From a virus, in the IMG/VR virus record IMGVR_UViG_3300021185_004134, positions 1 through 33,337 of that record: a DNA stretch of 33,337 bases; one strand, given 5' to 3'. The translations under genes and the position numbers were made by a program. Below are positions 9,447 to 30,033 of this stretch, in pieces (the first letter of the stretch is position 1; the number at the start of each line of letters is the position of its first letter). Below the pieces are notes generated by a model. That model saw only the letters and a list, made by a program, of their open reading frames with translations. It had not been told where the DNA came from and searched no databases.

Positions 9447-9454
9447 AATGAAAA

Positions 9455-9793: not shown

Positions 9794-10328
9794 TTTTGAA
9801 AAAGATGCAGACGCGCTGAAGCTGCAGGACGACGATATCGAAGGTATCGCAGGATTAGCAAAAAGAGCTAAAGAATTAGAGAAAGAGGTCGACGACCTTG
9901 AAGTGGTCATGAAAGAGAGAAAGGACCAACTTCGTAAATTAACTGAGCAGTCCATTCCAGAAGCCTTAGCCCAAGTTGGCATGCAGGGTTTCATTATGGA
10001 AGACGGTAGTAGAATCGAGCTGAAGGCATTTTACTCAGCTAGTATCTCTGCTGCTCGCAAGGCCGAGGCGTTTCAGTGGCTGCGCGATCATGGGATGGAC
10101 GACATCATTAAGAACACTGTCTCGATCCGATTTGGACGAGGCGAAGACGAGCTTTGCAGCCGTCTACTGAATCTACTTGGTCAGCAAGGCTATCCGGCCG
10201 AGCAGGCTGAGAAGATAGAACCGATGACCTTGAAGGCATTTGTTCGAGAGCAGACCGAGCGGGGGAATGATTTCCCGAGCGACTTGTTCGGCGCTTACGC
10301 AGGCCAAAAAGCAATTATTAAATCTTAA
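9786..10328 (+). CDS. coiled-coil replication-module protein, 180 aa, function unknown
   Basis: ATG 9786 overlaps the preceding gene end; GGAGAG lies upstream. Residues ~20-58 form a strongly predicted charged coiled coil (KRAKELEKEVDDLEVVMKER), followed by a compact domain with an IELKAFYSASIS strand pair and a C-terminal PMTLKAFVREQ motif. Proteins with this coiled-coil-plus-domain layout are commonly found beside the gene family that follows here in phage replication modules (recollection, not searched). A role in binding DNA or bridging replication proteins is possible. No enzymatic residues are evident. Confidence 0.7.
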   Translation: MIDFEKDADALKLQDDDIEGIAGLAKRAKELEKEVDDLEVVMKERKDQLRKLTEQSIPEALAQVGMQGFIMEDGSRIELKAFYSASISAARKAEAFQWLRDHGMDDIIKNTVSIRFGRGEDELCSRLLNLLGQQGYPAEQAEKIEPMTLKAFVREQTERGNDFPSDLFGAYAGQKAIIKS

Positions 10329-10348
10329 AGACAAAAGGAAAACGAAAA

Positions 10349-11125: not shown

Positions 11126-11132
11126 GTCTTTT

Positions 11133-11158
11133 GCCGGAGGGGCAACCCTCCGGCCTTT
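11133..11158 (+). terminator. GC-rich hairpin, partial terminator or mRNA-stabilising stem
   Basis: A 9-bp stem GCCGGAGGG / CCCTCCGGC with a GCAA (GNRA-type) tetraloop is followed only by CTTTAC. The poor T-run and the co-directional primase 16 bases later suggest attenuation or 3'-end protection rather than complete termination. Confidence 0.6.
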
Positions 11159-11173
11159 ACCCGAGAAAGAAGA

Positions 11174-12703
11174 ATGGAAAAGCTAGAAAAATTTATGGCC
11201 ATCTTCGAGGGCCTAGACTGTGCCTACGGTACTTATCGTGTTTCAGGCGAGCCGAATGCAAAAGGCAAGAGCACTGGTCAGGCGCTCGTGGTACGCAAAG
11301 CGCCGACCAAGGACCTGTGGCAGCGCCACTTTGACGGCATAGACCCGTCACTAGGAATCATCCCAATACGCGCCGACAATAGCTGTACGTGGGGCGCGAT
11401 AGACATCGACCAGTACCCGCTAGACCTGCAGGCGCTGATCGAAAAGATTAAGAAGCTTGGCCTGCCGCTTGTTACCTTCCGCAGCAAGTCAGGTGGCGCG
11501 CACGTATACTGCTTTACGAAGACGCCAGTGCCTGCCGGTGATATGCAAAAGTATCTGACTGCATGCGGTGGCCTGCTCGGTGAGGCGGGGCGCGAGATAT
11601 TCCCGAAACAATCTGAAATCCTAGTCGAGCGTGGTGACACCGGCAACTACCTTAACCTGCCTTACTTTGGCGGTGAGAAGACCTTGCGCTACGCGCTTAA
11701 GGAAGACGGCAACAGCGCGACGCTTGACGAGTTTTTTGCTATCTACGAGGCCAACGTCCAAGACGCTTTGGTCACGCCTAAGCCTCCTGAGAAACCCGAT
11801 ACACCCGTGAAGGATGGGCCGCCATGCCTGCAGGCTCTCTGCTCGCAGGGCTTTCCTGAAGGCTCACGGAATAACGGAATGTTCAGCGTCGGCATCTACC
11901 TCAAGAAAGCTTTTCCTACCGGATGGGAAGACAAGCTGATGGAGTACAATCAAAAGTATTTTAATCCGCCCCTTGCTTTGCAGGAAATCTTGCTCATTCA
12001 GAAGCAGCTCGAGAAAAAGGAATACCGCTACAAGTGCAAGGATGACCCCATCAAATCATTCTGCAACCCTGCTTTGTGCAGGCAGCGCAAGCACGGAATT
12101 GGGGGTGATGGACCTGACAGCCCGCAGCTCACCTCACTAAGCAAGTACGCGAGCGAGCCGCCACTGTGGTTCCTAGACGTGAACGGGAAACGCATAGAGC
12201 TTGAGACCGAGAGTCTGTTTAATCAGATGTTTTTTCAGAAGGCGTGCATGGAGCGGCTGAACGTACTGCCGCCGACAGTTAAAAAGCCTGACTGGGAGGC
12301 CCTTATCAACGAGCTGCTGAGTGAGATGGTCGAGATGCAGGCCATCACCGAGGCGAGCGAAGACACCACAATCACCGGCCGGTTCGCTGATTTGGTTGAA
12401 GAGTTTACGACTCACCTGCAGCAGGCTATGGACCGCGACGAGATTCTCATGGGCCGAGTGTGGACTGATGAAGCAAACGGTGTTTCTTATCTACGGATCA
12501 AGGACCTCGAAGCGCATTTGAAGCGCAACAACTTCGGCGCGCTGTCGGCGCCTAAAATGGCGCAGCGGTTACGCGAGTTGGGTGGCGAGCCTAGCAGCAT
12601 AAACCTTAAAGGCCGCACGGCTCGGGTATGGAAGCTGCCTGTGTTTGATAAGCAGGACTCACCTTTCGATACGCCGACGAGCGACGATTCGGTGCCGTTC
12701 TAA
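11174..12703 (+). CDS. archaeo-eukaryotic-type (AEP) DNA primase, 509 aa
   Basis: The N-terminal ~200 residues match AEP primases of the kind often labelled TOTE conflict-system primase: CTWGAIDIDQYP supplies the metal-binding Asp77/Asp79 pair, and FRSKSGGAHVYCF supplies the S-x-x-x-H motif with His110. A middle domain (GFPEGSRNNGMFSVGIYLKK) resembles the primase C-terminal helical domain, and a Cys cluster (CKDDPIKSFCNPALC) near residues 290-306 may bind zinc. The C-terminal ~150 residues include a winged-helix-like segment. It synthesises primers for the polymerase two genes downstream. AGAAAGAAG precedes the ATG; the stop overlaps the helicase ATG by one base. Confidence 0.85.
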   Translation: MEKLEKFMAIFEGLDCAYGTYRVSGEPNAKGKSTGQALVVRKAPTKDLWQRHFDGIDPSLGIIPIRADNSCTWGAIDIDQYPLDLQALIEKIKKLGLPLVTFRSKSGGAHVYCFTKTPVPAGDMQKYLTACGGLLGEAGREIFPKQSEILVERGDTGNYLNLPYFGGEKTLRYALKEDGNSATLDEFFAIYEANVQDALVTPKPPEKPDTPVKDGPPCLQALCSQGFPEGSRNNGMFSVGIYLKKAFPTGWEDKLMEYNQKYFNPPLALQEILLIQKQLEKKEYRYKCKDDPIKSFCNPALCRQRKHGIGGDGPDSPQLTSLSKYASEPPLWFLDVNGKRIELETESLFNQMFFQKACMERLNVLPPTVKKPDWEALINELLSEMVEMQAITEASEDTTITGRFADLVEEFTTHLQQAMDRDEILMGRVWTDEANGVSYLRIKDLEAHLKRNNFGALSAPKMAQRLRELGGEPSSINLKGRTARVWKLPVFDKQDSPFDTPTSDDSVPF

Positions 12704-14199
12704 TGATCACTAAGGTGTTCGGCCCGCCCGGCTCGGGCAAGACCACGTTCCTTCTCAATGTCGTTGAGAAGGAGCTTGCCGACAATACGCTATCAAGTCA
12801 GATAGGTTACTTCTCGTTTACTCGCAAAGCTGCAGGTGAAGCTCGAGACCGAGCGATCCAGAAATTCCCTAGCCTGAACGCCGAGACTGATTTCCCGTGG
12901 TTCCGCACGCTACATAGCCTTGCCTATCATTGCCTAGGAGCAGGGGCCAAGGACCTGATGTCTGCCGAGGACTACGCGACTTTCGCCAAGGAAACCGGAC
13001 TTGAGGTATCAACCTCGCTAGAGGGCGACGAGTACATCGTGCGCGCGGACAACGCGATCCTGAACGAGATAAACATCGCACGCATTCGAGGCATAGACCT
13101 GCGGACACATTACAACCGCAGCAATATGGACATCGAATGGTTCTATTTTGAATTCGTCGAGCGCGCCTACCGCAAGTTTAAAGCGGCGCATATGCTGATG
13201 GATTTTACGGACCTGCTCGAGAGACTAATAGAGCAGGACGAACGCCTGCCCTCACTCGAGGTACTGATTGTCGACGAGGCACAGGACCTGTCACGCCTGC
13301 AGTGGAAACTGGTTATGGCATTAGCGGAGAAGGCGGACCGCACGTTCGTCGCAGGAGATGATGACCAAGCGGTATACACGTGGTCCGGTGCTGACGTAGA
13401 AAGCTTTCTGTCATGTGAAGGTGAGGTAAAGATTCTCGAGCAGTCCTATCGCGTACCGGCTAAAGTCCACTTCCTCGCAAACTCTATCGTGAAGCGAATC
13501 CAGAACCGGCAGGAGAAAATCTGGGCGCCACGACAAGAGCAGGGCGAGATAAATTATTACAACCAATTCGAGCAGGTGGATATTAGCGAGGGCGAGTGGC
13601 TGATTATGGCGTCCACGAATTACATGCTCAACGACCTCCATACTTGGATAAAGAACCAAGGCCTGCTCTTCGAGCGCCAAGGACAACGGAGCATCGCCGA
13701 TTCGGTGGTGACCTCGGTTGTTGGTTGGGAGAGGTTACGCAGGGGCCAGTCAATTGGCTACGACGTGTTGCGGCAAGTCTATAAGCACCTGCCTGCTTCC
13801 TCTATTAAGCGCGGGTTTAAGTCACTAAGGCATGCGGACCCAGAGGGCCTGTACGACATGGCCGAACTCAAGGCAAATCAGGGCCTACTCACCGACGCAA
13901 TTTGGCACGAAGCGCTGACCAAGATAGGCGAAGACAAGCGCGACTATCTAATTGCGGTGCTGCGGCGCGGTGCGAAGTTAGGTGTGAAGCCTGCTATACA
14001 ACTGTCCACGATTCACGGAGCCAAGGGCGGAGAGGCGGACAATGTTTTATTGCTCACGGACCTTTCGCCAAAGTTTGCAAAAGATTATGCGAAGAACGCC
14101 GATGATATAAATCGACTCCTGTACGTCGGCGTCACGCGCACGAGGCAGTCACTGCACATCGTGCTACCTAAGAATGAAGAAAGAGGATTTAGATTTTGA
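12703..14199 (+). CDS. UvrD/PcrA-like superfamily 1 DNA helicase, 498 aa
   Basis: All core SF1A motifs are visible: Walker A GPPGSGKTT (7-15), FSFTRKAAGEARDRA (motif Ia), the Phe-Arg-Thr-Leu-His segment, Walker B LIVDEAQD (Asp191-Glu192), GDDDQAVYTWSGAD (motif III), EQSYRVP (motif IV), STIHGAKGGEADNV (motif V) and YVGVTRTR (motif VI, about 474-481). It is shorter than bacterial UvrD (about 720 aa), as usual for phage versions with reduced 1B/2B insertions. It is expected to unwind duplex DNA 3' to 5' ahead of the polymerase. It starts on the last base of the primase stop and ends inside the polymerase start codon, so primase, helicase and polymerase are tightly coupled. Confidence 0.95.
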   Translation: MITKVFGPPGSGKTTFLLNVVEKELADNTLSSQIGYFSFTRKAAGEARDRAIQKFPSLNAETDFPWFRTLHSLAYHCLGAGAKDLMSAEDYATFAKETGLEVSTSLEGDEYIVRADNAILNEINIARIRGIDLRTHYNRSNMDIEWFYFEFVERAYRKFKAAHMLMDFTDLLERLIEQDERLPSLEVLIVDEAQDLSRLQWKLVMALAEKADRTFVAGDDDQAVYTWSGADVESFLSCEGEVKILEQSYRVPAKVHFLANSIVKRIQNRQEKIWAPRQEQGEINYYNQFEQVDISEGEWLIMASTNYMLNDLHTWIKNQGLLFERQGQRSIADSVVTSVVGWERLRRGQSIGYDVLRQVYKHLPASSIKRGFKSLRHADPEGLYDMAELKANQGLLTDAIWHEALTKIGEDKRDYLIAVLRRGAKLGVKPAIQLSTIHGAKGGEADNVLLLTDLSPKFAKDYAKNADDINRLLYVGVTRTRQSLHIVLPKNEERGFRF

Positions 14200-16064
14200 A
14201 TAGGACTGGATCATTATTTCCACAGAGCAGTGAGTGGCTACCGCCGCAGAATTTCCCTGACCTGTCGGAGGCAAAAGAGATTGCAATCGACCTTGAGACC
14301 TGCGACCCGAACCTAGAAAAGTTTGGGCCGGGTTGGCCGCGCAAAGACGGGTTCATTGTCGGCTACGCCGTAGCCGTTGACGGGTGGTGCGGTTACTATC
14401 CCATCGCGCACGGTGGTGGCGGTAACCTAGATAAAAGAATGGTCGAGGCGTGGATCACGGACATTCTAAAACTGCCCTGCCCTAAGGTTATGCACAATGC
14501 TGCCTACGACTTGGGTTGGCTGCTTGCGTCAGGGTTCGAGGTCCAAGGCACAATTATCGACACGATGATTGCTGCAGGGCTAGTCGACGAGAACCGTTAC
14601 AGTTACGCGCTCAACTCTTTAGGCTTCGACATGCTGAAGGAAGTTAAGAGCGAGGTGGCGTTGAAGCAGGCGGCGGCAGACTTTGGCGTTCATCCGAAGA
14701 AAGAACTGTGGAAGCTTCCCGCTAATTTTGTCGGCAGCTACGGCGAGCAGGATGCGGCACTGACTCTAAAGCTTTGGCATCACCTCGAGACCCTGCTGAG
14801 GCAGGAAGAGGTTGAGTCTATTTTCAAGCTTGAGACAGAGATACTGCCGGTGCTTGTCGGCATGACACTTAAGGGCGTTCGCTTTGATAGGGAAAAAGCA
14901 ATAGCGCTTACCGAAGAGCTTAAGCAGAAAGAAAAGAAGATGATGGCTTTTATCCGCAAGGAGGCAGGCGTACCTGTCGACATGTGGGCAGCGGCAAGCA
15001 TTGCTAAGGCGTTTGATAAGTTAAATGTCGCCTATCCGAAGACCGACAAGGGCGCGCCAAGTTTCACCAAGTCATTCCTTGAGGGGTGCGAGCACCCAAT
15101 TGCCAAGGCCATTGTTGAGGTGCGCGAGATAAATAAAACGCACAACACTTTCCTACAGCCGTATCTAGACGCCAGTGAGGCGACCGGGCGAATCCATTCG
15201 CACATTAACCAGTTGCGCGGTGAGGGCGGCGGCACGGTTACCGGACGACTGTCAATGAACCAACCGAACCTGCAGCAGGTGCCTGCACGCCATCCGATAA
15301 TCGGTCCGATGGTCCGCAGTTTATTCTTGCCTGAGGAGGGTGAACTCTGGGCGGCAAACGATTTCTCGAGTCAGGAGCCGAGGCTACTGGTGCATTATGC
15401 AAGCTTGTTGAAGTTGGATGGCGCCGAGAAAATGGCAGACGCATATCAAGAGGACCCCGATACCGATTTTCACCAGATGGTTGCGGACCTCGCAGGCATT
15501 AGCCGCAAACAGGCAAAGACAATTGGACTCGGTTTGATCTACGGCATGGGCGTTAAGAAGCTCGCGCTAGAGCTTGACATGCACGACGACGAAGCTAAGG
15601 AGTTAATCCAGACATTCCACGCGAAGGTCCCGTTCTTGAAATCCACAATTGGTGCGGTGCAGAAGCGCATCGAATACCCTGCTTCCGGCGGATCAATTCG
15701 CACACTGCTAGGTCGCAAGTGTAGGTTCCCATTGTGGGAGCCGCAGCAGTGGGGCATCAACAAAGCGCTGCCCTACGAAGAAGCTGCCGCTAAGTACGGC
15801 ACGCGCATCCGCCGAGCGATGACGTACAAGGGCACCAACAAATTGATTCAGGGTTCGGCTGCGGATCAGTGCAAGAGCGCTATGCTTGCCCTGCACAAGG
15901 CAGGCTTCAACATTATGCTGCAGGTGCATGACGAGATAGCCCTGTCGGTAAAGAGCCGTGAAGAGGCGGAGGAGGCCGCTAGAATCATGCGCGAAGCGGT
16001 GGAGCTTGCCGTGCCAAGCAAGGTAGATGTTGAGCTAGGGCCAAGTTGGGGTGAATCAAAGTAG
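14196..16064 (+). CDS. polA: family A DNA polymerase with 3'-5' exonuclease, 622 aa
   Basis: The start is TTG 14196, overlapping the helicase stop by four bases and preceded by GAAAGAGGA. Exonuclease motifs: Asp32-x-Glu34 (Exo I), Asn101/Asp105 (Exo II), Tyr182-x3-Asp186 (Exo III). Polymerase motifs: the TVTGRLSMNQPNLQ segment, motif A with Asp389, motif B RKQAKTIGLGLIYG (Arg437, Lys441, Leu445, Tyr449) and motif C HDE at 578-580. There is no 5' nuclease domain, as in T7-type phage polymerases. The residue equivalent to E. coli Phe762 is Leu445. This is the replicative polymerase of the phage. Confidence 0.97.
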   Translation: MNRTGSLFPQSSEWLPPQNFPDLSEAKEIAIDLETCDPNLEKFGPGWPRKDGFIVGYAVAVDGWCGYYPIAHGGGGNLDKRMVEAWITDILKLPCPKVMHNAAYDLGWLLASGFEVQGTIIDTMIAAGLVDENRYSYALNSLGFDMLKEVKSEVALKQAAADFGVHPKKELWKLPANFVGSYGEQDAALTLKLWHHLETLLRQEEVESIFKLETEILPVLVGMTLKGVRFDREKAIALTEELKQKEKKMMAFIRKEAGVPVDMWAAASIAKAFDKLNVAYPKTDKGAPSFTKSFLEGCEHPIAKAIVEVREINKTHNTFLQPYLDASEATGRIHSHINQLRGEGGGTVTGRLSMNQPNLQQVPARHPIIGPMVRSLFLPEEGELWAANDFSSQEPRLLVHYASLLKLDGAEKMADAYQEDPDTDFHQMVADLAGISRKQAKTIGLGLIYGMGVKKLALELDMHDDEAKELIQTFHAKVPFLKSTIGAVQKRIEYPASGGSIRTLLGRKCRFPLWEPQQWGINKALPYEEAAAKYGTRIRRAMTYKGTNKLIQGSAADQCKSAMLALHKAGFNIMLQVHDEIALSVKSREEAEEAARIMREAVELAVPSKVDVELGPSWGESK

Positions 16065-17713: not shown

Positions 17714-17983
17714 ATGACAGACTTCAACAACATCGCAGCAATCAACGCTACTGTACTCAAGAATGGTAAAGCCAAGATGGTAGCAATCATGAATGACGGT
17801 TCTGAAGTGATCGTCCGCAAGGTTAGTGCGGCAAAAGCCTACGCTAACATTTACGACCATGAGGTAAATGGCAACGCAGGTGGTTTGGCTTCGTACATTA
17901 CAATCAACGCCAAGCCCGGCGTTCCAAGCCGAGGGGGGGACAACGCTGCCCCTGTTAAGTCAATCAAAATAACTTACCTCTAA
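17714..17983 (+). CDS. small unknown cassette protein, 89 aa
   Basis: ATG 17714 is fixed by the ATACAGGAGA leader eight bases upstream. The product looks like a small alpha/beta protein: MVAIMNDGSEVIVRKVSA strands, a helix, and a Gly-rich loop before a final IKITYL strand. No family recognised. First gene of cassette A; the following gene carries the same ribosome binding leader behind a UUCG hairpin. Confidence 0.75.
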   Translation: MTDFNNIAAINATVLKNGKAKMVAIMNDGSEVIVRKVSAAKAYANIYDHEVNGNAGGLASYITINAKPGVPSRGGDNAAPVKSIKITYL

Positions 17984-17991
17984 ACCCAACC

Positions 17992-18028
17992 GGCCCCTTC
18001 GGGGGCCAACCCCATACAGGAGAAAGAC
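17992..18028 (+). promoter_or_regulatory. UUCG-capped hairpin leader with ATACAGGAG ribosome binding site
   Basis: Stem GGCCCC / GGGGCC (17992-17997 and 18002-18007) with a TTCG tetraloop is followed by AACCCC-ATACAGGAGA and ATG 18029. There is no -35/-10 and no T-run after the stem, so this is more likely a processing or stability element between two cistrons than a terminator. Confidence 0.75.
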
Positions 18029-18244
18029 ATGAAAGCGACTATAAAGAATCTAAACGCCTACATACAGGCACGCTATTCTGATCTTGGCCTTGAATTTGTT
18101 AAAGGGGAAGGCTACTTTTATTTCGTCGGCAACGACGACCTTTACGTCGAGTCGATCATGGTCTACGCGCTCAATCGTTGTGGCCACGCCAAGTGGTGCG
18201 AAATGATCGACGGACAAATTTATCAAGCTTTATTAAACAAGTAA
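18029..18244 (+). CDS. small unknown cassette protein, 71 aa
   Basis: The start follows the shared ATACAGGAGAAAGAC leader. The product has a basic N-terminal helix (IKNLNAYIQARYSDLG), a YFYFVGNDDLYVES strand pair and a final helix with CGHAKWCEMIDG. No family recognised, and no obvious paralogue elsewhere in the window. Confidence 0.75.
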   Translation: MKATIKNLNAYIQARYSDLGLEFVKGEGYFYFVGNDDLYVESIMVYALNRCGHAKWCEMIDGQIYQALLNK

Positions 18245-18265
18245 TTTTAAATACAGGAGAAAGAC

Positions 18266-18589
18266 ATGAAAATTGAAACTGAAGTAGGACCCATCGAGAT
18301 TGACTTTGACCCTAAGAAGTACAAGACCAAGGCAGGTGCTGCCAAGGCCTTCCACAAAGCCTTGTGCAAATTCTGCAAAGAGGTGTACGGGCAAAACCCT
18401 GATATAGAAATCTTTATCGATACCCCAGAGGAAAGCCAAGCCCGTGGCTACGGCAAAAATTGGCGGGTATGTTGGGAAGGCGGACCTTACGAGTGGTCCA
18501 TCGGCGCTTCAATGCAGGTACAGAACTACTTTAAAGGCGGTTGGTACACGGAGCCTTACTACTCATTCGACCTGTGTTTCACTGGGTAG
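18266..18589 (+). CDS. small unknown cassette protein, 107 aa
   Basis: The start follows ATACAGGAGAAAGAC directly, here without a hairpin. The product starts with two short strands (IETEVGPIEIDFDP), then a basic helix with KAFHKALCKFCKEVYG, and ends with several aromatic residues (YEWSIGASMQVQNYFKGG). The stop codon lies inside the conserved upstream block of cassette B, so the next promoter is embedded in the end of this gene. Function unknown. Confidence 0.75.
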   Translation: MKIETEVGPIEIDFDPKKYKTKAGAAKAFHKALCKFCKEVYGQNPDIEIFIDTPEESQARGYGKNWRVCWEGGPYEWSIGASMQVQNYFKGGWYTEPYYSFDLCFTG

Positions 18590-18667
18590 TAAAAAGTAGT
18601 TGCGAGTGGTCTCATAATGTGAGACCATCTCTTTGTCGGATTGGCCGACACCATACAGGAGAAAGAC
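18586..18667 (+). promoter_or_regulatory. promoter-hairpin-RBS cassette B
   Basis: GTAGTAAAAAGTAGTTGC begins in the last codons of the preceding gene. -35 TTGCGA (18600-18605), 17 bp, -10 GACCAT (18623-18628), six bases, then stem GTCGG / CCGAC (18635-18639 and 18645-18649) with loop ATTGG, then ATACAGGAGA and ATG 18668. The spacer holds a perfect inverted repeat GGTCTCA-TAATG-TGAGACC (18608-18626) overlapping the -10, which may be an extra operator not found in the other copies. Confidence 0.85.
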
Positions 18668-19246
18668 ATGAAACTGACTAGAGAATTTTTTGTACCCGCT
18701 GAGTTCAAGGAAAAGATTGTTAAGTTCGATGGCGCCCTCGAGGTCTACATTGTTGAGAACGGTCCTAGCTACGTGGCCAAGGGCTTCAAAGGCAAAGCTG
18801 CCAAGCCTGCTTTCTATTACGATTTCAAGACTGCCGAGCGAATGGCTGAGTATATCGACGGCTTTTTTGCTGACTACGCCGAAATGGTTGAGTACAAGGC
18901 TAACGAAAAAGCAAAGGCCAAAGCTAAGAAAGCTGAGGCTGCCAAGAACCTTAAAGTCGGAGACATCTACTACAGCTCTTGGGGCTACGACCAGACTAAC
19001 ATTGACTTTTACAAGATTGTCGATGTTAAGGGCGCTAAAGCTACATTGGTTGAGATTGCTAAGTCATACTTAGACAGCGAGTTTGCTTACGAAGACAAGG
19101 TTGTGCCTGCTCCTAACGTCATTGTAGGTAAGCCCATGAACAAGATCGTTGACCAGTTCGGCAACTTCAACATTGCAAGCTACGCCGGTGCCTATAAATG
19201 GAACGGTGAGCCTAAATCTCAAACTGCTTCGGGGTACGGACACTAA
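18668..19246 (+). CDS. cassette protein with WGYDQTN domain, 192 aa
   Basis: ATG 18668 follows the cassette leader. After ~75 residues of alpha/beta sequence comes a basic helix (KAKAKKAEAAKNL), then a domain that begins LKVGDIYYSSWGYDQTNIDF (about residues 97-116). This WGYDQTN motif recurs in phage and plasmid proteins of unknown function (recalled). The basic helix followed by a compact strand-rich module suggests interaction with nucleic acid or a host protein. It leads a run of small overlapping genes. Role unknown. Confidence 0.75.
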   Translation: MKLTREFFVPAEFKEKIVKFDGALEVYIVENGPSYVAKGFKGKAAKPAFYYDFKTAERMAEYIDGFFADYAEMVEYKANEKAKAKAKKAEAAKNLKVGDIYYSSWGYDQTNIDFYKIVDVKGAKATLVEIAKSYLDSEFAYEDKVVPAPNVIVGKPMNKIVDQFGNFNIASYAGAYKWNGEPKSQTASGYGH

Positions 19247-19705: not shown

Positions 19706-20067
19706 AAGCGCTACTGTTAGCAGCATCCTTAGTTCTTGCCCCATGCGCCACGGCTCAAATCACGTTCACCACTATCGGTGACATCACTTTCGGGAGCGAC
19801 GGCTCAACGGCCACCACCATCGGTGGTACGACATTCGTCACGGGTGGTAGCCCTGTAGTGCAGCACTCTCTTGGCTCGACTCTATCCGCACAGAACTCGA
19901 CAACCTCGAGCACCGCTCAAAAGATTGGCAACATTACCTACGTCACGGACAGCGAGGGTAAGTCTACAACTTTCCAGAAGATTGGGAATTTTACGTTTGG
20001 CTCCGACGGCTCGACCGTGCAGAAAATCGGCAATACTTATTTTGTAACTGAGGGAAATAAAAAATGA
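19702..20067 (+). CDS. exported beta-repeat protein, 121 aa
   Basis: A cleavable signal peptide (MKALLLAASLVLAPCATAQ; likely cut after ATA) precedes about five imperfect repeats built on IGxxTFGSDGST or IGNxTYVTD, rich in Thr, Ser and Gly. The pattern predicts a short beta-solenoid or stacked beta hairpins outside the cytoplasm. Similar IGNTTY repeat proteins exist in bacteria with unknown roles (recollection). In a phage, an exported repeat protein made early could alter the envelope, for example superinfection exclusion; this is speculation. It is coupled to the neighbours by ATGA overlaps. Confidence 0.7.
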   Translation: MKALLLAASLVLAPCATAQITFTTIGDITFGSDGSTATTIGGTTFVTGGSPVVQHSLGSTLSAQNSTTSSTAQKIGNITYVTDSEGKSTTFQKIGNFTFGSDGSTVQKIGNTYFVTEGNKK

Positions 20068-20276
20068 AAATTGAAACAGACGTTCCATTGCCTGATTCTA
20101 GTCGGGCACGCAAGTACCCCTTCCTCGAAATGGAGGTAGGCCAGTCAGTCCTTTTTGAGGATGAAGAAGTAAACGGCCGCGCTTACCGCGCAGCGATGTC
20201 AACTGGTAGGCGCCACAACCAAAAGTATGTTGCCCGCCGCGAAGATAATGGTATAAGAATTTGGAGAGCAGAATGA
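20064..20276 (+). CDS. DUF7303-like small protein, 70 aa
   Basis: The N-terminal PLPDSSRARKYPFLEMEVGQ and the C-terminal GIRIWRAE match the YPFxxMxVGxS...WR pattern of a widespread small phage and bacterial family that I recall as DUF7303. A related 81-aa protein is encoded at 26728-26973, so the genome has two distant paralogues. It begins with an ATGA overlap. Function unknown; the family is often found near replication or regulatory genes. Confidence 0.7.
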   Translation: MKIETDVPLPDSSRARKYPFLEMEVGQSVLFEDEEVNGRAYRAAMSTGRRHNQKYVARREDNGIRIWRAE

Positions 20277-22032: not shown

Positions 22033-22247
22033 ATAAACCAATTCAAGAAGAGTTCTGGTTTGATATGCCGGAATTTGTGCAAGAAAAGCAGGCCCCGTAC
22101 CTCGAGCTTAAGGTACGGTTTGCAGACCAAGAAGCTCTCGAGGAGTTTTCCAAATTGATCGGCCAAAAGCTCACGGTTAAGACCAAGTCTATCTGGCACC
22201 CAGAGCTTGTTAGAGGGCTTAACGGAGGCAAGAGGTATGTTGAGTAA
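22029..22247 (+). CDS. small MPEFVQ-motif protein, 72 aa, linked to the glycosyltransferase
   Basis: ATG 22029 overlaps the hydrolase stop (ATGA). The product contains FWFDMPEFVQEKQAPYLELK and a LTVKTKSIWHPE ending. This motif pair recurs in phages next to glycosyltransferases or as a C-terminal add-on of other proteins (recollection, not verified). It overlaps the glycosyltransferase by 11 bases, so the two probably act together. Mechanism unknown. Confidence 0.65.
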   Translation: MNKPIQEEFWFDMPEFVQEKQAPYLELKVRFADQEALEEFSKLIGQKLTVKTKSIWHPELVRGLNGGKRYVE

Positions 22248-23136
22248 CCGTTACCCCGTTTACGTCGTCAGCAAGGGCAGGGCGCATTCTAGGCAGACTG
22301 TCAAAGCTCTTGAGCGGATGTCTGTAGAATACAGCGTGGTTGTCGAACAGGCTGAGCTTGAGGAGTACGCTCAGCACATTGATCGGCGCAGGCTGTTGGT
22401 GCTGCCGGAGCGATACAGGGCGGAGTATGAGCTGTGTGACGAGCTTGGCTTTACGAGGTCCACGGGCCCCGGCCCTGCCAGAAACTTTGTATGGGACCAC
22501 GCTACCGCTCTAGGCGTTAAACGCCACTGGGTCATGGATGACAACCTCGACGATTTTCATCGCTTAAATCGCAACATGAAGGTCCCAGTGCGGTCCCCTG
22601 CTACCCTTCGAGCGTCAGAGGATTTTGTCGACAGATTCGCCAACGTGCCAGTGGCCGGTATGAATTACTATTCGTTCTGCAAGAGCACTGACGGCGTGCC
22701 GCCGTTCGTGGCCAACACTCGAATCTATTCCTGCCTGCTGATTGAGAATGCTGCACCGTACAGGTGGCGAGGACGGTACAACGAGGATACCGATCTCAGC
22801 CTGAGAGTTCTCAAGGATGGCCTGTGTACGATCCAGTTCAATGCTTTCCTGTGTGGCAAGACAACCACGCAACGGATGAAGGGAGGCAACACAAAAGAAT
22901 TCTACGCAGGTGAAGGCACCTTGCCTAAATCTCAGATGATCGTGGACCTGCACCCTGACGTATCCAAGGTTGTTTGGCGCTTCAACCGATGGCACCACCA
23001 CGTCGACTACCGGCCATTTAAAAACAATAAGCTTATCTACCGAGACGACTATCAGAAGGTGGACCGAAATAACGAGTACGGCATGCGCCTTGTTGATTAC
23101 GGGATGAAAGCGCCAAAAGACTCCGGACGGCAGTAG
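22237..23136 (+). CDS. TAGT-like glycosyltransferase (candidate DNA base modification), 299 aa
   Basis: ATG 22237 is preceded by GGAGG. The protein matches the TET-associated glycosyltransferase (TAGT) pattern: RYPVYVVSKGRAHSRQT at the N-terminus, GPGPARNF (about 77-84), a WVMDDNLDDF stretch with the acidic sugar-nucleotide/metal site (Asp101, Asp102), and EDTDLSLR (about 183-190). Family members attach sugars to hydroxymethylated cytosines made by phage TET/JBP dioxygenases. No TET-type dioxygenase is seen in this window, so the acceptor base is unknown or the partner lies outside. DNA hypermodification to resist restriction is the most likely role, by inference. Confidence 0.75.
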   Translation: MLSNRYPVYVVSKGRAHSRQTVKALERMSVEYSVVVEQAELEEYAQHIDRRRLLVLPERYRAEYELCDELGFTRSTGPGPARNFVWDHATALGVKRHWVMDDNLDDFHRLNRNMKVPVRSPATLRASEDFVDRFANVPVAGMNYYSFCKSTDGVPPFVANTRIYSCLLIENAAPYRWRGRYNEDTDLSLRVLKDGLCTIQFNAFLCGKTTTQRMKGGNTKEFYAGEGTLPKSQMIVDLHPDVSKVVWRFNRWHHHVDYRPFKNNKLIYRDDYQKVDRNNEYGMRLVDYGMKAPKDSGRQ

Positions 23137-23257: not shown

Positions 23258-23332
23258 TTGTTTTCTAGGATTAGATCGACTAAGCTGCAGTTGTTGTCAG
23301 GGAATGGCCCTGACCGGATACAGGAGACAGAC
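23258..23332 (+). promoter_or_regulatory. promoter-hairpin-RBS cassette E
   Basis: -35 TTGTTT (23258-23263), 17 bp, -10 TAAGCT (23281-23286), nine bases, then stem GTCAGGG / CCCTGAC (23296-23302 and 23308-23314) with loop AATGG, then GGATACAGGAGA and ATG 23333. Relative to cassette C the stem differs by one compensated pair (G-C to A-T). This is the most divergent promoter of the set; the AT-rich upstream block is degenerate. Confidence 0.75.
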
Positions 23333-24061
23333 ATGCTAAACATCATCGCCAACGCTGAGTACCGTCACGGTGCAGAGAACTCAACTCCTAAGTCTTACCA
23401 GAAGAAAGCACAGAAGCTCTTCGCTGAGCTTGGCGAGAATGTCCAAATCGTCAAAATCCAGTGCAACTACAGCAGCAGCAAGTATCACCTGTTCGCCTTC
23501 GGTGAGGACGTGAGCAACCCCCTCTACCGACAGCAGGGCCGAATCGAGATCAGCGAGAAACAGCGCGCTCTCCACGGACCTGACTACAGGGACGGTGCCG
23601 ATCACTTCTACGCCGTTTGGTCAGACTGGCAAGACGGCACTGGCTACACTGAGTACCAAGCTCAGGCCAAGGCGGCCATCGAGAAGCACCGTAAAACTCA
23701 AGAGGCCAAGGCAGCTAAAGCCGAGCCAGTGGAGCAGGTGCAGTTCTGGGCCAACCAAGCTTGGAGAGATGGGATCGTCTTAGCGACTATCGAGGACCGC
23801 GCCCTGATCGCCTACCGTATGCCTGCCGGTGCTGTCTACATGGTCATAGTGGCTCACGACCCAGACACAGGGGCCGCTAAGCGCCAGTGGGAGTGCGGCA
23901 GCAGCTACGTCAAGGGTTACCGCTACGGCAGCTACAAATCGATCTCAGCCAACGCCCTGAAGAAGAATGCCAAGTGGCTTGCTGAGGTGGTCAAGGTCGA
24001 GGGCTTTGAAGATGGGAACGTGGACCAAGGACTTGAATATCTGGGCGAGGACCTAGAGTAA
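23333..24061 (+). CDS. unknown cassette protein, 242 aa
   Basis: The start follows the cassette leader. The N-terminal ~115 residues are alpha/beta with aromatic clusters (YHLFAFGEDVSNPLYRQQG, HFYAVWSDWQDGTGYTEYQ). A Lys/Ala-rich helix follows, and the C-terminal ~90 residues include QAWRDGIVLATIEDRALIAY and a basic patch. Base composition is a bit higher in GC than flanking small genes. No known family or catalytic motif was found. It is the only gene of its transcription unit before cassette C. Confidence 0.75.
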   Translation: MLNIIANAEYRHGAENSTPKSYQKKAQKLFAELGENVQIVKIQCNYSSSKYHLFAFGEDVSNPLYRQQGRIEISEKQRALHGPDYRDGADHFYAVWSDWQDGTGYTEYQAQAKAAIEKHRKTQEAKAAKAEPVEQVQFWANQAWRDGIVLATIEDRALIAYRMPAGAVYMVIVAHDPDTGAAKRQWECGSSYVKGYRYGSYKSISANALKKNAKWLAEVVKVEGFEDGNVDQGLEYLGEDLE

Positions 24062-24088: not shown

Positions 24089-24177
24089 GTAGTAAAAAGT
24101 AGTTGCAGCCCTCCCTGATATCAATTACGATGCAGTTGTTGTCGGGGAATGGCCCCGACCGGATACAGGAGAAAGAC
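24089..24177 (+). promoter_or_regulatory. promoter-hairpin-RBS cassette C
   Basis: GTAGTAAAAAGTAGTTGC (24089-24106), -35 TTGCAG (24103-24108), 17 bp, -10 TACGAT (24126-24131), nine bases, stem GTCGGGG / CCCCGAC (24141-24147 and 24153-24159) with loop AATGG, then GGATACAGGAGA and ATG 24178. Best plus-strand -10 of the set. Confidence 0.85.
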
Positions 24178-24438
24178 ATGAGCAAAATCACTAACTGGGA
24201 AATCAAGAGCTACCCCGAGCTAAAGGGAGATTTCAACGGCCCTACTGGATACGCACTAGGCGTTGCCAACGTGAAGGACGCTTGGGGTGAAGTTGAGATT
24301 GTCCCCGCTTGGATCAAAGTGGTGTTCGCCGACGATGCCGCCCACGTTATCCTGATTAACAAGAAAGGCGACTACAACGGCCTTTACCACATTGTCCCGC
24401 TTCCTGAAGAGGAAGCTATCGAAAGCATTCCACTCTAA
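24178..24438 (+). CDS. small unknown cassette protein, 86 aa
   Basis: The start follows the cassette leader. The product is strand-rich with a GPTGYALGVANVKDAWGEVE segment, KVVFADDAAHVILINKKGDY, and a short acidic tail. No family recognised. The second gene of this unit (24484) follows a UUCG-capped leader. Confidence 0.75.
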   Translation: MSKITNWEIKSYPELKGDFNGPTGYALGVANVKDAWGEVEIVPAWIKVVFADDAAHVILINKKGDYNGLYHIVPLPEEEAIESIPL

Positions 24439-24915: not shown

Positions 24916-25113
24916 ATGTACAGCGATCAATTTCAAGCAAAGATAGAAGCGCTAATAGCGGAATATCCAGAGCTTACAGAAAGCCACGTAATAGAGGCGG
25001 CTCAAAACGTAGAGTCATTTGGCTACCCTTTTGAAGAAGAATCTGACCGGGTTTTGGACGCTTATGCAGCTTGCTTGGGTGGCACTTCCGAACAGTATTA
25101 CGGCCCTCGATAA
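24916..25113 (+). CDS. small acidic cassette protein, 65 aa
   Basis: The start follows the cassette leader (AAAGACA spacing one base longer). The product is helical and acidic (MYSDQFQAKIEALIAEYPEL, FGYPFEEESDRVLDAYAAC). No family recognised. It is followed by the zinc-finger gene with the shared leader. Confidence 0.7.
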   Translation: MYSDQFQAKIEALIAEYPELTESHVIEAAQNVESFGYPFEEESDRVLDAYAACLGGTSEQYYGPR

Positions 25114-25138
25114 ACCAACCCCATACAGGAGACAAGAG

Positions 25139-26059
25139 ATGAAAGTACCTCAACTAAACCACGGCGTTATCTATAACGGCGAAGAGATCACCACACCTCT
25201 CGGCCTACCACGCAATGCCGAGATCAGCTTCGACGACCTCGAGGATGACTTCGACTCAATCGACGTTCGTGAGTCTACTGGCCAGTACGCCAAGCGCGAG
25301 CAGCACCCCTGCAGCAAGTGCGGCGGTAAGGGTGTTTACCAGTACGGTTACGCGAACCCTCGTCAGGGCAAGTGCTTCGCCTGTAACGGCAAGGGCTACT
25401 TCCTCACTAGCGCTGCAGATCGCGCCAAGGCCAAAGCATCACGCAACAAGAGCAAAGCCTCTAAGCAGCAGGCAAACGCCGACGCCGGCCTTAAGCAATT
25501 GCTCGAGGCCCTCGGCGCTGAGGGTCTGCAATGGCTCACTAACGCAACTTGGTCCGACTTCTATCAGGACCTACTTGCCAAGGCTAAGAAGTACGGCGCT
25601 TTGTCTGACAAGCAGCTTGCTTGTGTCGTCAACGGATACGCTAAGCAGCAGGCACGCGATGCCGCTAAGAACGCCGCCGCGCCTACGCTTGATCTGGCCA
25701 AGATCAACGCGCTGTTCGCCACGGCCCTTGAGAACGGTATCGCCAAGCCTAAGCTTGTGTTTGGCGAGCTGAAGCTCTCTCTGGCCCCTGCCAACGGCAA
25801 GAACGGCGGATGCCTCTACGTCAAGGACAGCGGCGAGTACGCCGGTAAGATCACGCCTGAAGGACAATTCTTCGCGGTTCGTGGTTCACGTGAGACTATC
25901 CCCGCCGAATTGCAGGCCATCGCCGAGGACCCTAAGAACGCTGCAATAAAGCACGGGCAGGCAACAGGAAACTGCGCTTGCTGCAACAGGCTTCTCACTA
26001 ACGCCAAATCAATCGAGATAGGCATAGGTCCTATCTGCCTCGAGAACTGGGGCCTATAA
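25139..26059 (+). CDS. zinc-binding protein with DnaJ-like finger and DUF6011-like end, 306 aa
   Basis: ATG 25139 follows ATACAGGAGACAAGAG. Residues 58-84 form a CSKCGGKG...CFACNGKG pair like one DnaJ zinc finger (Cys58, 61, 79, 82). A Lys/Ala-rich linker and a helical middle follow, then a C-terminal Cys cluster in TGNCACCNRLLTNAKSIEIG and GIGPICLENWG, the pattern of DUF6011-type domains found in phage and plasmid proteins. Function is unknown; nucleic acid or protein binding through zinc modules is the safest reading. It is the last gene before the noncoding control region. Confidence 0.75.
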   Translation: MKVPQLNHGVIYNGEEITTPLGLPRNAEISFDDLEDDFDSIDVRESTGQYAKREQHPCSKCGGKGVYQYGYANPRQGKCFACNGKGYFLTSAADRAKAKASRNKSKASKQQANADAGLKQLLEALGAEGLQWLTNATWSDFYQDLLAKAKKYGALSDKQLACVVNGYAKQQARDAAKNAAAPTLDLAKINALFATALENGIAKPKLVFGELKLSLAPANGKNGGCLYVKDSGEYAGKITPEGQFFAVRGSRETIPAELQAIAEDPKNAAIKHGQATGNCACCNRLLTNAKSIEIGIGPICLENWGL

Positions 26060-26072
26060 ACCCCTAATCACT

Positions 26073-26112
26073 AGGTACTCAAATCACGCATTTGAGTACC
26101 TTGAATTTTATA
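26073..26112 (+). terminator. inverted repeat, probable terminator
   Basis: Perfect 12-bp stem AGGTACTCAAAT / ATTTGAGTACCT (26073-26084 and 26090-26101) with loop CACGC, followed by TGAATTTTATA. The T-run is displaced by several bases, so it may be a weak terminator or a protein-binding dyad. Confidence 0.7.
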
Positions 26113-26173
26113 CCTAACCCCACTAGGAGGCGCTGTAAACTACGCCGGTTAGGCATTACAGTACATTACAGTG
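26113..26173 (+). repeat. CCTAACC/GGTTAGG dyad and tandem CATTACAGT repeats
   Basis: CCTAACC (26113-26119) pairs with GGTTAGG (26147-26153), with a nested GGCG / CGCC. Immediately after come two tandem 10-bp units CATTACAGTA and CATTACAGTG (26154-26173). The 10-bp spacing puts both units on one helix face, as with iterons or operators. Confidence 0.65.
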
Positions 26174-26184
26174 CACACCCCGAT

Positions 26185-26218
26185 ACCGCAAAAAACGGCC
26201 TTTTTTGCGGTTTTTTTT
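26185..26218 (+). terminator. strong intrinsic terminator
   Basis: Stem ACCGCAAAAAA / TTTTTTGCGGT (26185-26195 and 26201-26211) with loop CGGCC, followed directly by seven T. This ends the early region transcripts; the A-rich left arm makes it able to work on the other strand as well. Confidence 0.92.
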
Positions 26219-26223
26219 GTTTT

Positions 26224-26578
26224 TGACGTAATCTGACGTAATCTTTTTTTGTCTATTAAGGTGGAGGCCCCGTGAATAAAGGAACGAGGGGTCTTTAATG
26301 TGGAGGAGTAAAGATGGGCCGTGGACCACGGGAAATGGCGGCGGAATTGCTCTGGAGGCCACGCGGTGCGGGCTTTGAGGGGCATGGGTCATGGACCAAG
26401 GACCTGCCTATGCAAGCCCCTTCTATAGTACAGTATTTTGAGAAAAAAAAGATTCGATTTTATTTTTAATGGAATACTGTACGTTTGACGTAACTGACGT
26501 AACCCTTCCCTATCTACGGGGTCTGTAGCGTTACGTCTGCCATTACGTCTAAATATTATAGACGTAATGACGTAATGG
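26224..26578. repeat. GACGTAA iterons in tandem and inverted pairs (candidate origin or control region)
   Basis: Eight copies of GACGTAA occur in 355 bp: tandem TGACGTAATC x2 (26224-26243), tandem TGACGTAAC x2 (26486-26503), two inverted copies (26531-26537 and 26543-26549) and two direct copies (26561-26567 and 26569-26575). The 26541-26569 segment is a perfect 11-bp dyad, CATTACGTCTA / TAGACGTAATG around a 7-base AT loop. The words ATCTACGGGGT also repeat at 26512 and 26588. Flanking tracts (26439-26470 and 26610-26640) are extremely AT-rich. This is the architecture of an iteron origin or of a multi-operator control region. Confidence 0.8.
26314..26469 (+). CDS. possible small ORF, 51 aa
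   Basis: ATG 26314 lies five bases after GGAGGAG, a near-ideal site, and opens 51 codons (MGRGPREMAAELLWRPRGAG at the start) that run through one copy of the long inverted repeat and end in an AT-rich tract. Composition is odd and the frame overlaps cis-acting elements, so this may be fortuitous. Confidence 0.3.
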   Translation: MGRGPREMAAELLWRPRGAGFEGHGSWTKDLPMQAPSIVQYFEKKKIRFYF

Positions 26579-26660
26579 TTTTACTAAATCTACGGGGTGC
26601 GCGCGCGACTTCTTTTTTAGAAAAAAAACTTATTTTTTGTGAGAATACTGTACTATAGAA
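26421..26660. repeat. 17-bp perfect inverted repeat flanking the inner control region
   Basis: TTCTATAGTACAGTATT (26421-26437) is the exact reverse complement of AATACTGTACTATAGAA (26644-26660), with 206 bp between. A third partial copy AATACTGTAC lies at 26473-26482, and AATACTGTA also occurs at 16078-16086 before a putative DNA-binding protein gene. Likely binding sites of one phage or host regulator. Confidence 0.9.
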
Positions 26661-26671
26661 ACCGCTGAAAA

Positions 26672-26700
26672 TAGACAGATTAGCAGCCTGTCGATACAAT
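26672..26700 (+). promoter_or_regulatory. sigma70-like promoter for the packaging operon
   Basis: TAGACA (26672-26677), 17 bp, TACAAT (26695-26700); each box matches consensus at five of six positions. Start of transcription would be about 20 bases before ATG 26728. It is just outside the right copy of the 17-bp inverted repeat, so a protein bound there could control it. Confidence 0.7.
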
Positions 26701-26727
26701 ACAGTTTTTTCCACTGACGAGGCTACA

Positions 26728-26973
26728 ATGACACTCTCAGGCATTACTCCACGGCAGCACACCCTGCGCCGTTGCAACGGTGACCACAAACAAGCCAGTT
26801 ATCCTTTCAAGGCGATGATTATCGGCGATTACTTTGTTGTCCTCTCGAAAGAGGATGCCAAGCGCATTAACGGCGCTTTGTCGACGTTTTATAGGTCTCG
26901 TAATGGCACAGGCAGGCGATTTTCTGTTACGCAGTCAGAAGGCCCTATGTGGACCTGTAGGAGGACAGCATGA
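26728..26973 (+). CDS. DUF7303-like small protein, 81 aa
   Basis: ATG 26728 follows GAGG. Residues ~26-80 contain YPFKAMIIGDYFVVLSKEDA and end in GPMWTCRRTA, the same YPFxxMxxGDxF...W layout as the 70-aa protein at 20064, to which it is probably a distant paralogue. It begins the operon for the small terminase and may be a regulator or accessory factor. The end overlaps the terminase start by ATGA. Confidence 0.7.
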   Translation: MTLSGITPRQHTLRRCNGDHKQASYPFKAMIIGDYFVVLSKEDAKRINGALSTFYRSRNGTGRRFSVTQSEGPMWTCRRTA

Positions 26974-27896
26974 GCAGCGAAGGGAAGAAACGCCGAGACA
27001 TTCTGAACACGTCGCCACTGCGGGGCAGCGCTAAAGAAAGGATTCAAGCACGGCTGAGTGAGCCGGTAGCCCCACTCAAAAATCAGAAGCACATTGTCAG
27101 CGCTCAGCAATGGACCTTCATTCAAGAATTCATATCGAACGACGGGCACATTACTCTGACTGAGGCCGCAATACGCGCCGGTTATCCTAAGGATTCGGCA
27201 AGCTCGATAGCCTCGGAACTTACGGACCCAAAAAAGAAACCGCACGTCGTCGCAGCCATCCAAGAATATCGAGCACAACTCGCTGAGAAATACGGCACGA
27301 ACTTCGACCGGCACATGCGCGACATGCAGATGATTCGTGATAAGGCTCTCGAGGCAGGCAACTTCGGCGCAGCAGTCTCTGCTGAATACCGGCGCGGCCA
27401 AGCTCTCGGCACCATCTACATCGAGCGGAAGGAAATTAGGCACGGCACCATCGACAGCATGTCGAAAGAGGAGGTCACTCGAAAGCTCGAAGAGATCAAG
27501 GCGCTGTACGGTTCACCACCGCAGACCCTGATAGACATCGAGCCTGAGCAGCTCGAAGAGATCGAAGAGATCGAAGAGATTCCCCCCGCCAAAACAATGA
27601 TCGAGGAGATGCGCGATGCCGAGCGGTCCAGAGGCAGCACTGCACAAACGAGTGAAGACAAACCTGCCGGACGCGACGATAGTGCGACTGGAGAACCGGG
27701 TGAACCTCGGGATACCGGACTGCCTGATAGCCCTGCCGCCGACATACTCGATGGTGGAGCTGAAGGTGGTGAAGACCGGCAAGAAAGTGCGCTTGAGTCC
27801 GCACCAGATAGCCTTCGCCCTGAAACACGGGACGATGGGGATGCCGACGTACATTCTAGTCCAGTGGCACCCTCAGGGGACGACCAAGGCCGCTGA
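26970..27896 (+). CDS. terS: terminase small subunit, 308 aa
   Basis: ATG 26970 overlaps the preceding stop; GGAGGAC lies upstream. Residues ~44-95 form the DNA-binding helical domain of phage small terminases (QQWTFIQEFISNDGHITLTE, AAIRAGYPKDSASSIASEL), followed by a helical oligomerisation region to about residue 195 and a KLEEIKALYG helix. The last ~93 residues are Asp/Glu/Ser/Pro-rich and disordered, and overlap the next gene for 281 bases in another frame. The subunit recognises the packaging site and positions TerL. Longer than typical small terminases (about 150-200 aa) because of this tail. Confidence 0.85.
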   Translation: MSSEGKKRRDILNTSPLRGSAKERIQARLSEPVAPLKNQKHIVSAQQWTFIQEFISNDGHITLTEAAIRAGYPKDSASSIASELTDPKKKPHVVAAIQEYRAQLAEKYGTNFDRHMRDMQMIRDKALEAGNFGAAVSAEYRRGQALGTIYIERKEIRHGTIDSMSKEEVTRKLEEIKALYGSPPQTLIDIEPEQLEEIEEIEEIPPAKTMIEEMRDAERSRGSTAQTSEDKPAGRDDSATGEPGEPRDTGLPDSPAADILDGGAEGGEDRQESALESAPDSLRPETRDDGDADVHSSPVAPSGDDQGR

Positions 27897-28551: not shown

Positions 28552-30033
28552 ATGGGAATTTTTATGCAACAAGATGTCGATGCCGAACGATTAAAGTTAG
28601 AGCTACGCTTAGCCTTGCTAGAGGGCCAAGAACGGGCACAGGACACCTTTATCGGTTTCTCTCAGTACGTCTGGCCTGAAGCGATACTCAGCAGCCACCA
28701 TAAGATTATGGCTGACGCTTTTGACCGAATAGCCAAGGGAACCCTAAAGCGCTTAATCGTGAACATGCCTCCTCGACACACCAAATCAGAATTTGCGTCG
28801 TATCTGCTGCCTGCTTACATCATGGGCCGTCGTCCAAGCACCAAGATCATTCAGGCGACACACACCGGCGAGCTTGCTGTCAGATTCGGCCGTAAGGTGC
28901 GTAACCTCATGGACCTTGATAAATACAAGGAAGTATTCCCTGACGTAGCCTTGAAGGCTGATAGTAAAGCCGCCGGAAGGTGGGACACGGACAAAGGAGG
29001 GGAGTACTTTGCTGTAGGTGTAGGCGGCGCGATGACGGGCCGTGGTGCGGATATGCTGATTATCGATGACCCGCACTCGGAGCAGGACGCGGCGTCGGTG
29101 TTAGCTCTGGACAACGCTTGGGACTGGTACACGTCTGGGCCTAGAACTAGATTGCAGCCGGGTGGGGCAATTGTTATCGTCATGACTCGGTGGGGAACCA
29201 AGGACCTAACGGCCCGATTACTCAAATCTCAGTCCAACATGAATGCGGACCAATGGGAGGTTATTGAGTTCCCTGCCGTTTTTGATGAAGGCGAAGAGAA
29301 CGAGCGCGCCCTTTGGCCTAGCTTCTGGGAGCTTGACGAACTCAGGGCTGTGCGTGCTTCTATGTCCATTCAGAAATGGAACGCGATGTACCAACAACGG
29401 CCCACGGCTGATGAGGGTGCAATCTTAAAGCGTGAGTGGTGGCGCGTGTGGGATAAGGACTACATGCCGCACATGGAATATCTTATTCAGTCGTATGATA
29501 CCGCGTACTCGAAGAAGGAGACGGCGGATTTCTCTGTCATTACGACGTGGGCGGTGTTCTTCCCCACGGAGGACTCGGGGCCTAATCTGTTGCTTGTTGA
29601 CATGCGTAAAGGCCGGTGGGACTTTCCTGACCTTAAGCGTAAGGCGAAGGAGCAGTATGACTACTGGCAGCCGGATAATGTCTTAATCGAGGCCAAGGCG
29701 ACGGGAATCACGCTTCAGCAGGAACTGCGTAGGATGGGCATTCCGGTTACTATGTATAGCCCCGGCGGGCGACGCGCAGGCCAAGACAAGGTGTCACGAG
29801 CAAACTCTGTCGCACCGATTTTTGAGTCCGGCATGGTCTGGGCACCTGAGACGGATTGGGCAGACGAAGTGATCGAGCAGTGTGCGGCGTTCCCTAACGG
29901 TGACAACGACGACATGGTGGATAGTACGACTCAGGCTTTGATGCGTTTTCGTGCCGGTAATTTCATCTCTCTGCACAGTGATGAGGACGACGATCCCTCG
30001 GAAAATGAAGGGCTTGTCCCTGAGTATTATTAG
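28552..30033 (+). CDS. terL: terminase large subunit, 493 aa
   Basis: Packaging motor with N-terminal ATPase and C-terminal nuclease. Walker A-like PPRHTKS (73-79), Walker B LIIDDP (about 169-174), and a coupling segment with TRWGTKD follow. The nuclease acidic residues are Asp316 in SYDTAYS, Glu380 in LIEAKATG and Asp454/Asp457 in DDMVDS. Length is usual for the family. Start is uncertain: ATG 28552 has no clear ribosome binding site, and ATG 28564 has GGGA upstream. It lies after TerS and the nuclease, separated by a structured gap, and drives DNA into proheads. Confidence 0.95.
   Translation: MGIFMQQDVDAERLKLELRLALLEGQERAQDTFIGFSQYVWPEAILSSHHKIMADAFDRIAKGTLKRLIVNMPPRHTKSEFASYLLPAYIMGRRPSTKIIQATHTGELAVRFGRKVRNLMDLDKYKEVFPDVALKADSKAAGRWDTDKGGEYFAVGVGGAMTGRGADMLIIDDPHSEQDAASVLALDNAWDWYTSGPRTRLQPGGAIVIVMTRWGTKDLTARLLKSQSNMNADQWEVIEFPAVFDEGEENERALWPSFWELDELRAVRASMSIQKWNAMYQQRPTADEGAILKREWWRVWDKDYMPHMEYLIQSYDTAYSKKETADFSVITTWAVFFPTEDSGPNLLLVDMRKGRWDFPDLKRKAKEQYDYWQPDNVLIEAKATGITLQQELRRMGIPVTMYSPGGRRAGQDKVSRANSVAPIFESGMVWAPETDWADEVIEQCAAFPNGDNDDMVDSTTQALMRFRAGNFISLHSDEDDDPSENEGLVPEYY

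Follow-up and report, generated by a model that had tools for sequence, protein, structure and literature searches.

The oriV of IncQ plasmids (RSF1010) combines iterons, GC-rich and A/T-rich blocks, inverted signals recognised by the primase, and an AEP-like primase. Phage SPP1 has two origins (oriL and oriR), one of them intergenic, which contain direct repeats and an A/T-rich DUE, a single initiator binding both (PMC6316719). Origin initiators also exist among AEP primases: those fused to a PriCT-1 domain, ColE2 Rep for instance, can recognise and open origins (PMC5862659), and IHF is known to assist both plasmid and chromosomal origins (PMC4980987). We analysed a viral record from IMG/VR, 33,337 bases long and used over its whole length (the window), in which an earlier, sequence-only reading had proposed an iteron-rich replication origin or master control region. 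The window encodes an exonuclease, an SNF2-type helicase, an AEP primase, a UvrD-type helicase and PolA; many small genes follow these, and terS and terL come last. The site does lie, as had been claimed, at the boundary between early and packaging genes, with early and replication genes on one side and terS and terL on the other. The features to which we refer are the following (the limits of the gap are from the ORF list):

7216-16064, the whole replication module: exonuclease, SNF2 helicase, Pam3 gp32/gp33/gp34-like proteins, AEP primase, UvrD and PolA
11174-12703, plus strand, AEP (TOTE-type) primase of the replication module associated with the element
26060-26727, noncoding gap of 668 bp holding the element, between the phrog_4046 gene (end 26059) and orf82 (start 26728)
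26185-26211, plus strand, terminator-like hairpin followed by a T run, downstream of the upstream gene
26222-26241, plus strand, outer direct GACGTAA pair with 10-bp spacing, outside the arms; near relatives have an equivalent pair
26421-26448, plus strand, left arm of the long inverted repeat, TTCTATAGTACAGTATTTTGAGAAAAAA
26472-26482, minus strand, third occurrence of the arm word, GAATACTGTAC, inside the arms and inverted relative to the left one
26487-26502, plus strand, direct iteron pair with 9-bp spacing
26531-26549, minus strand, inverted iteron pair with 12-bp spacing
26561-26575, plus strand, second direct iteron pair with 8-bp spacing, forming an 11-bp dyad with 26541-26551
26591-26608, plus strand, conserved TACGGGGTGCGCGCGCGA (GC) block
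26609-26632, A/T tract, candidate unwinding region
26633-26660, minus strand, right arm of the long inverted repeat
26672-26700, plus strand, sigma-70-like promoter candidate TAGACA-N17-TACAAT (score 10/12), 11 bases past the right arm
26728-26973, plus strand, orf82, a small conserved protein, located between the element and terS in many relatives
26970-27896, plus strand, terS (Terminase_2)
28552-30033, plus strand, terL

The eight GACGTAA words announced for the gap were all found as exact copies, at 26225, 26235, 26487, 26496, 26531 (minus strand), 26543 (minus strand), 26561 and 26569, while the rest of the window held five further copies, as scattered singles. When the gap was shuffled 5,000 times with dinucleotides preserved, this word occurred on average 0.11 times and at most twice, and the best count reached by any 7-mer was 5. 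The gap is thus a noncoding region with several copies of a short word, far above chance, as expected of iterons. The copies form three direct pairs, spaced by 10, 9 and 8 bp, and one inverted pair, spaced by 12 bp. The proposal that the tandem pairs sit on one face of the helix holds for the 10- and 9-bp pairs; the 8-bp pair, which the sequence-only reading had not listed, fits it poorly. The perfect 11-bp dyad is real (26541-26551/26559-26569). The description of the region as iteron-rich was correct but understated, as it missed the 28-bp arms, which are the strongest feature, and the GC block. We define the element as 26421-26660 (about 240 bp), with six of the eight GACGTAA words as its core; it is made of inverted 28-bp arms, direct-inverted-direct iteron groups, the TACGGGGTGCGCGCGCG block and A/T tracts, and, read from left to right between the arms, it has a direct, an inverted and a second direct pair, followed by the TACGGGGTGCGCGCGCGA block and an A/T tract. 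The A+T content was 78% at 26607-26660 and 77% in the left flank (26421-26486), so that by composition an A/T-rich region lies beside the iterons, and this region may melt.

Other repeats were observed around the element. To its left, at 26314-26401, there are GGACCACGG-type repeats, which recur in many relatives, including HTVC023P (GGACCACGAACCACGG). The dyad stretch 26541-26569 (CATTACGTCTAAATATTATAGACGTAATG) is exactly inverted (reverse complement) in a near-identical relative (L084), which suggests flipping through a hairpin or template switch. Among the neighbouring genes, the small proteins encoded at 20064-20276 and 26728-26973 both show a YPF..M..GD.. pattern and could be paralogues; a weak match to DUF7303 was seen for the former. 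Ahead of several small early genes there is a recurrent leader that contains a ribosome-binding site and reads through as ..RIQEKDM.. (around 17980-18034, 18251-18274, 18645-18673, 23258-23340, 24103-24180 and 25101-25144). The protein encoded at 22207-23136 belongs to the TET-associated glycosyltransferase family (PF20691), which hints at DNA base modification.

The two arms (26421-26448/26633-26660) are 89% complementary over 28 bp. Their exact 17-bp core is the longest inverted repeat of the window at a spacing of 100-300 bp; in ten whole-window shuffles the longest was 10-12 bp. To score arms, we used 50 dereplicated elements that had been picked by distance and position relative to terS, word repetition and A/T content, the arms being ignored. 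The score of left against right arms was 12.2 within a phage and 6.6 between phages, with a maximum mean of 8.1 in 10,000 permutations (n = 50); as for all our statistics on relatives, these sequences were dereplicated yet still related. For 21 of the 50 left arms, the phage's own right arm was the best match. The sequence of the arms is specific to each phage, yet the two arms appear constrained to match one another. Examples are L063, with 30/30 identical positions, and L118, with 32/33, both from an earlier set of elements that was chosen partly by arm score and is hence biased. Long exact arms were not found in three pelagiphage-type genomes (HTVC023P, HTVC027P and 023Pt_psg01), though iterons are present there; the arms are therefore not universal.

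Relatives were gathered by searches based on TerS and TerL, which gave 143 loci with a terS match, and the layout was kept in relatives whose TerS identity was as low as about 45%. The iteron word drifted among them (GACGTAA, GGTGTAA, CCGTAA, GACGCAA, GACGTGTT), the copies changing in concert between phages. A search with the GC block, blind to terS, matched 55 IMG/VR contigs, with a single copy in each, and terS was found 62-658 bp downstream of the element, on the same strand, in 52 of the 52 contigs that reached far enough. The distance from terS to terL differs by kilobases among relatives. At the corresponding place, HTVC023P has CTAGGAAA words. In HTVC027P and 023Pt_psg01, terS is inverted, whereas the element, which has a word of its own there, is still oriented towards terL as elsewhere, so it is not just a promoter for terS. 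An exact match to the IHF consensus (WATCAANNNNTTR) was present between the direct and the inverted iterons in 18 of the 50 elements, nearly always at the identical position, versus 1.2% of mononucleotide shuffles. It was not found in the window's own element or clade. From these comparisons, we consider this a real, functional and conserved cis element, with features in an unusual combination. In a more distant cyanophage, MinM2 (L234, 32060-32640), clusters of GTATGAC were observed in noncoding DNA directly upstream of the terL operon.

We also looked at phages that share either the replication or the packaging module. The identity between the window and JeffCo was 35% for SNF2, 31% for the primase, 30% for the Pam3 gp34-like protein, and 29% for UvrD and PolA, while the window TerS had no match in JeffCo. 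An arm-iteron-arm element immediately precedes the AEP primase gene in module-sharing phages of Acinetobacter, Providencia, Salmonella, Klebsiella and Pseudomonas. In Kokobel2, 18-bp arms, 211 bp apart, flank TGGAACC words. The primase-linked words are TGGAACG in PMBT28, VLCpiS6a and PSA28, GCAACCGA in SH-Ab 15497 and DMU1 (with related words in Bhz9 and Ab53), and GGGGTAAC in JeffCo and Barton. A second copy of the element was present in all six phages checked (JeffCo, SH-Ab 15497, Kokobel2, PMBT28, DMU1 and Bhz9); in JeffCo and SH-Ab this copy is full-length and inverted, whereas Kokobel2 and PMBT28 have it in direct orientation. Several observations weigh against an origin. Within the family to which the window belongs, the element lies close to terS and more than 10 kb away from the primase. 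The window's element resembles that of the Acinetobacter-type phages in architecture, not by sequence homology. No element was detectable in ct3Et533, whose primase is 41% identical. The roseophage CRP-901 has homologous structural and packaging genes and a different replication module (PMC10149686), and we found no element ahead of its terS. As its TerL is only 36% identical, this absence is weak evidence on its own, but together with the module-sharing phages it suggests that the element goes more closely with the replication genes than with the packaging genes. Like phages with diaminopurine genomes, SH-Ab 15497 (L243) and Bhz9 (L251) carry adenylosuccinate-synthetase-like (PurZ-type) and dATP-hydrolase genes; we saw no such gene in the window.

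Between the two functions that had been proposed, replication origin or master control region, we favour the origin, because the architecture adjoins the AEP primase gene in the module-sharing phages and is absent before terS in the phage that shares packaging genes only. With moderate confidence, we regard the element (26421-26660), together with the outer pair (26222-26241), as a putative iteron-type origin of a phage with an AEP-primase/UvrD/PolA module. This appears the most likely function because the element is kept in place across many marine and freshwater phages and is built alike in distant phages that share DNA-copying genes. A protein that belongs to the replication module, or that the module recruits, would bind cooperatively to both kinds of iteron, direct and inverted; in many relatives, the two groups would be brought together by an intervening IHF-type bend. 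The bound complex would then melt the adjacent A/T tracts, allowing the helicase to enter, and the AEP primase would begin synthesis; the arms might serve in this as hairpins, or else as a pair of opposed binding sites. What is directly supported is the conservation of position and layout, the matching of the arms, the concerted change of the words and, in the module-sharing phages, the association with the replication module. Cumulative GC skew had a single sign all round DSL-LC04 and showed no inflection at the elements of four other genomes; since it holds one sign around the genome, it is uninformative on the origin. The A-T skew turns near the elements of JeffCo and SH-Ab, but we set this aside because the turns coincide with module boundaries. 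The text of the HTVC027P transcriptome paper (PMC12753301) gives no data on the element locus, and the passages of two genome papers reached by a term search (PMC9599517 and PMC10611076) do not treat origin, skew or termini.

We considered which protein might read the iterons. The window primase contains no PriCT or HTH domain according to Pfam, while PriCT_1 is present in that of SH-Ab. Different iteron words accompany primases with 95-97% identity, which makes it doubtful that the primase alone is the reader. Comparison of the proteins of JeffCo, SH-Ab, DMU1, Bhz9 and Ab53 did not make any candidate reader stand out. TerS was rejected as a candidate on inspection of the residues of its recognition helix (helix 3), which show free variation across phages that share one word. 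In one pair of phages (G001 and G008), TerS is 74% identical and the helix is changed, which is compatible with TerS tracking the word, and this leaves TerS as a residual possibility.

A control region, which we hold to be rather unlikely, would mean that the iterons and arms are operators of a phage regulator, which switches the adjacent operon (terS and late genes in the window, the primase operon in the Acinetobacter-type phages) from the promoter to the right of the right arm. The good sigma-70-like box at 26672 would suit this function, as would the TTGAC[CG]-N17-TTTAAT box that JeffCo and SH-Ab have past the right arm of their primase-linked element, and the location of the elements at module boundaries. 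Promoter scores of at least 10/12 were modestly enriched downstream of the elements (13% of 53 elements versus 2% of shuffles), but the mean score was barely above that of shuffles (8.23 versus 7.90). Origins often adjoin promoters, so that a promoter box is compatible with both an origin and a control region. Furthermore, the inversion of the second copy in JeffCo and SH-Ab means that the orientation to the following operon is not fixed, the constant orientation towards terL in the two phages with an inverted terS also argues against control of the adjacent operon, and a 240-bp structure with matched arms of 25-48 bp is large for an operator. The possibility that the arms close a structured noncoding RNA is very remote. 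The arms covary and the predicted folds are very stable, with z scores of -7.25 on the plus strand and -6.12 on the minus strand; however, the two strands fold about equally, and any inverted repeat must fold in this way. Arm mismatches, counted in the biased earlier set, had no G-U bias on either strand (14 versus 15), and the constraint on the arms therefore looks DNA-level rather than RNA-level. The element stretch had no Rfam match, and the iteron and arm words recur as repeated sites, which also speaks against an RNA.

The proximity of terS raises the question of packaging. In a pac site, modelled on that of SPP1 or, with an IHF bend, on lambda cosB, TerS would bind the iterons and headful packaging would start with a first cut in the GC block or the A/T tract. 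This agrees with the constant presence of terS shortly downstream in the 52 informative contigs when the terS-terL distance varies by kilobases, with terS staying near the element even where it is inverted, with the resemblance of repeats flanking an IHF site to cosB R3-I1-R2 (PMC4856287), and with circular or scattered assembly ends, which are compatible with headful packaging. We nevertheless find a pac site improbable, since the recognition helix of TerS does not track the word, the same architecture lies upstream of the primase gene and in second copies of either orientation in the module-sharing phages, and CRP-901 has homologous terS and terL genes without the element. A cos site, in which the GC block would be the nicking site and the physical end of the genome, is most unlikely. 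The GC-rich block does adjoin repeats and terS, and two contigs from different metagenomes stop 7 bp before it, but contigs of 48-68 kb span the element and break at scattered places, with no general cluster of ends, the element is internal in the circular record DSL-LC04, and the CRP-901/902 relatives were assembled as circles (PMC10149686).

The origin therefore remains our preferred reading, ahead of an operator region or a pac site. A more specific idea, which we put forward tentatively, is that such elements could form a phage replicator class of their own, linked to AEP-primase modules, with direct-inverted-direct iterons lying within inverted arms whose sequence is free and whose match is conserved. 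The signal would then be the pairing of the arms, which could be priming hairpins or identical, opposed loading sites. Between close relatives, the words of the arms and those of the iterons change together, as though private recognition were being selected for, and this turnover would provide a natural series in which to follow the co-evolution of replicator and reader. Direct-inverted-direct iterons in matched inverted arms would be a landmark allowing origins to be called in many uncultured genomes, and origin firing becomes testable in cultures, for example with HTVC027P on HTCC1062 or JeffCo on Acinetobacter calcoaceticus.

Layout alone would fit lambda cosB (R3-IHF-R2-R1), SPP1 pac and iteron origins, and as in lambda cosB and SPP1 pac, repeats lie on both sides of a bend beside terS (PMC4856287). 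The present element differs from these packaging sites in that there is no sign of physical ends, the TerS helix does not track the word, and the same architecture also stands beside the primase gene in other phages; the IHF site between repeats that characterises lambda-type cosB is missing from the window element and exact in 18 of 50 relatives. With SPP1 oriL and oriR, the element has in common direct repeats with an A/T-rich region and, in the Acinetobacter-type relatives, two copies per genome. In contrast, the window phage has a single copy, to which inverted iterons, long arms and a GC block are added, and a gp38-like initiator and a DnaB-type helicase were not found in the window's replication module. 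Iteron plasmid and ColE2-type origins also combine repeated short words, an A/T-rich flank, an IHF site (here in many relatives) and, in the module, an AEP primase (PMC4980987, PMC5862659). Unlike in the ColE2-type origins, Pfam detects neither PriCT nor HTH in the primase of the window. To our knowledge, matched long arms are not part of iteron plasmid or ColE2-type origins. The IncQ (RSF1010) oriV resembles the element in its iterons, GC-rich and A/T-rich blocks, inverted signals and AEP-like primase, a likeness that we take as a lead only, and differs from it in that the arm sequence is phage-specific in the window's element family. The element is probably a known kind of element, an iteron-type origin, in a new form that joins arms, iteron groups and a GC block.
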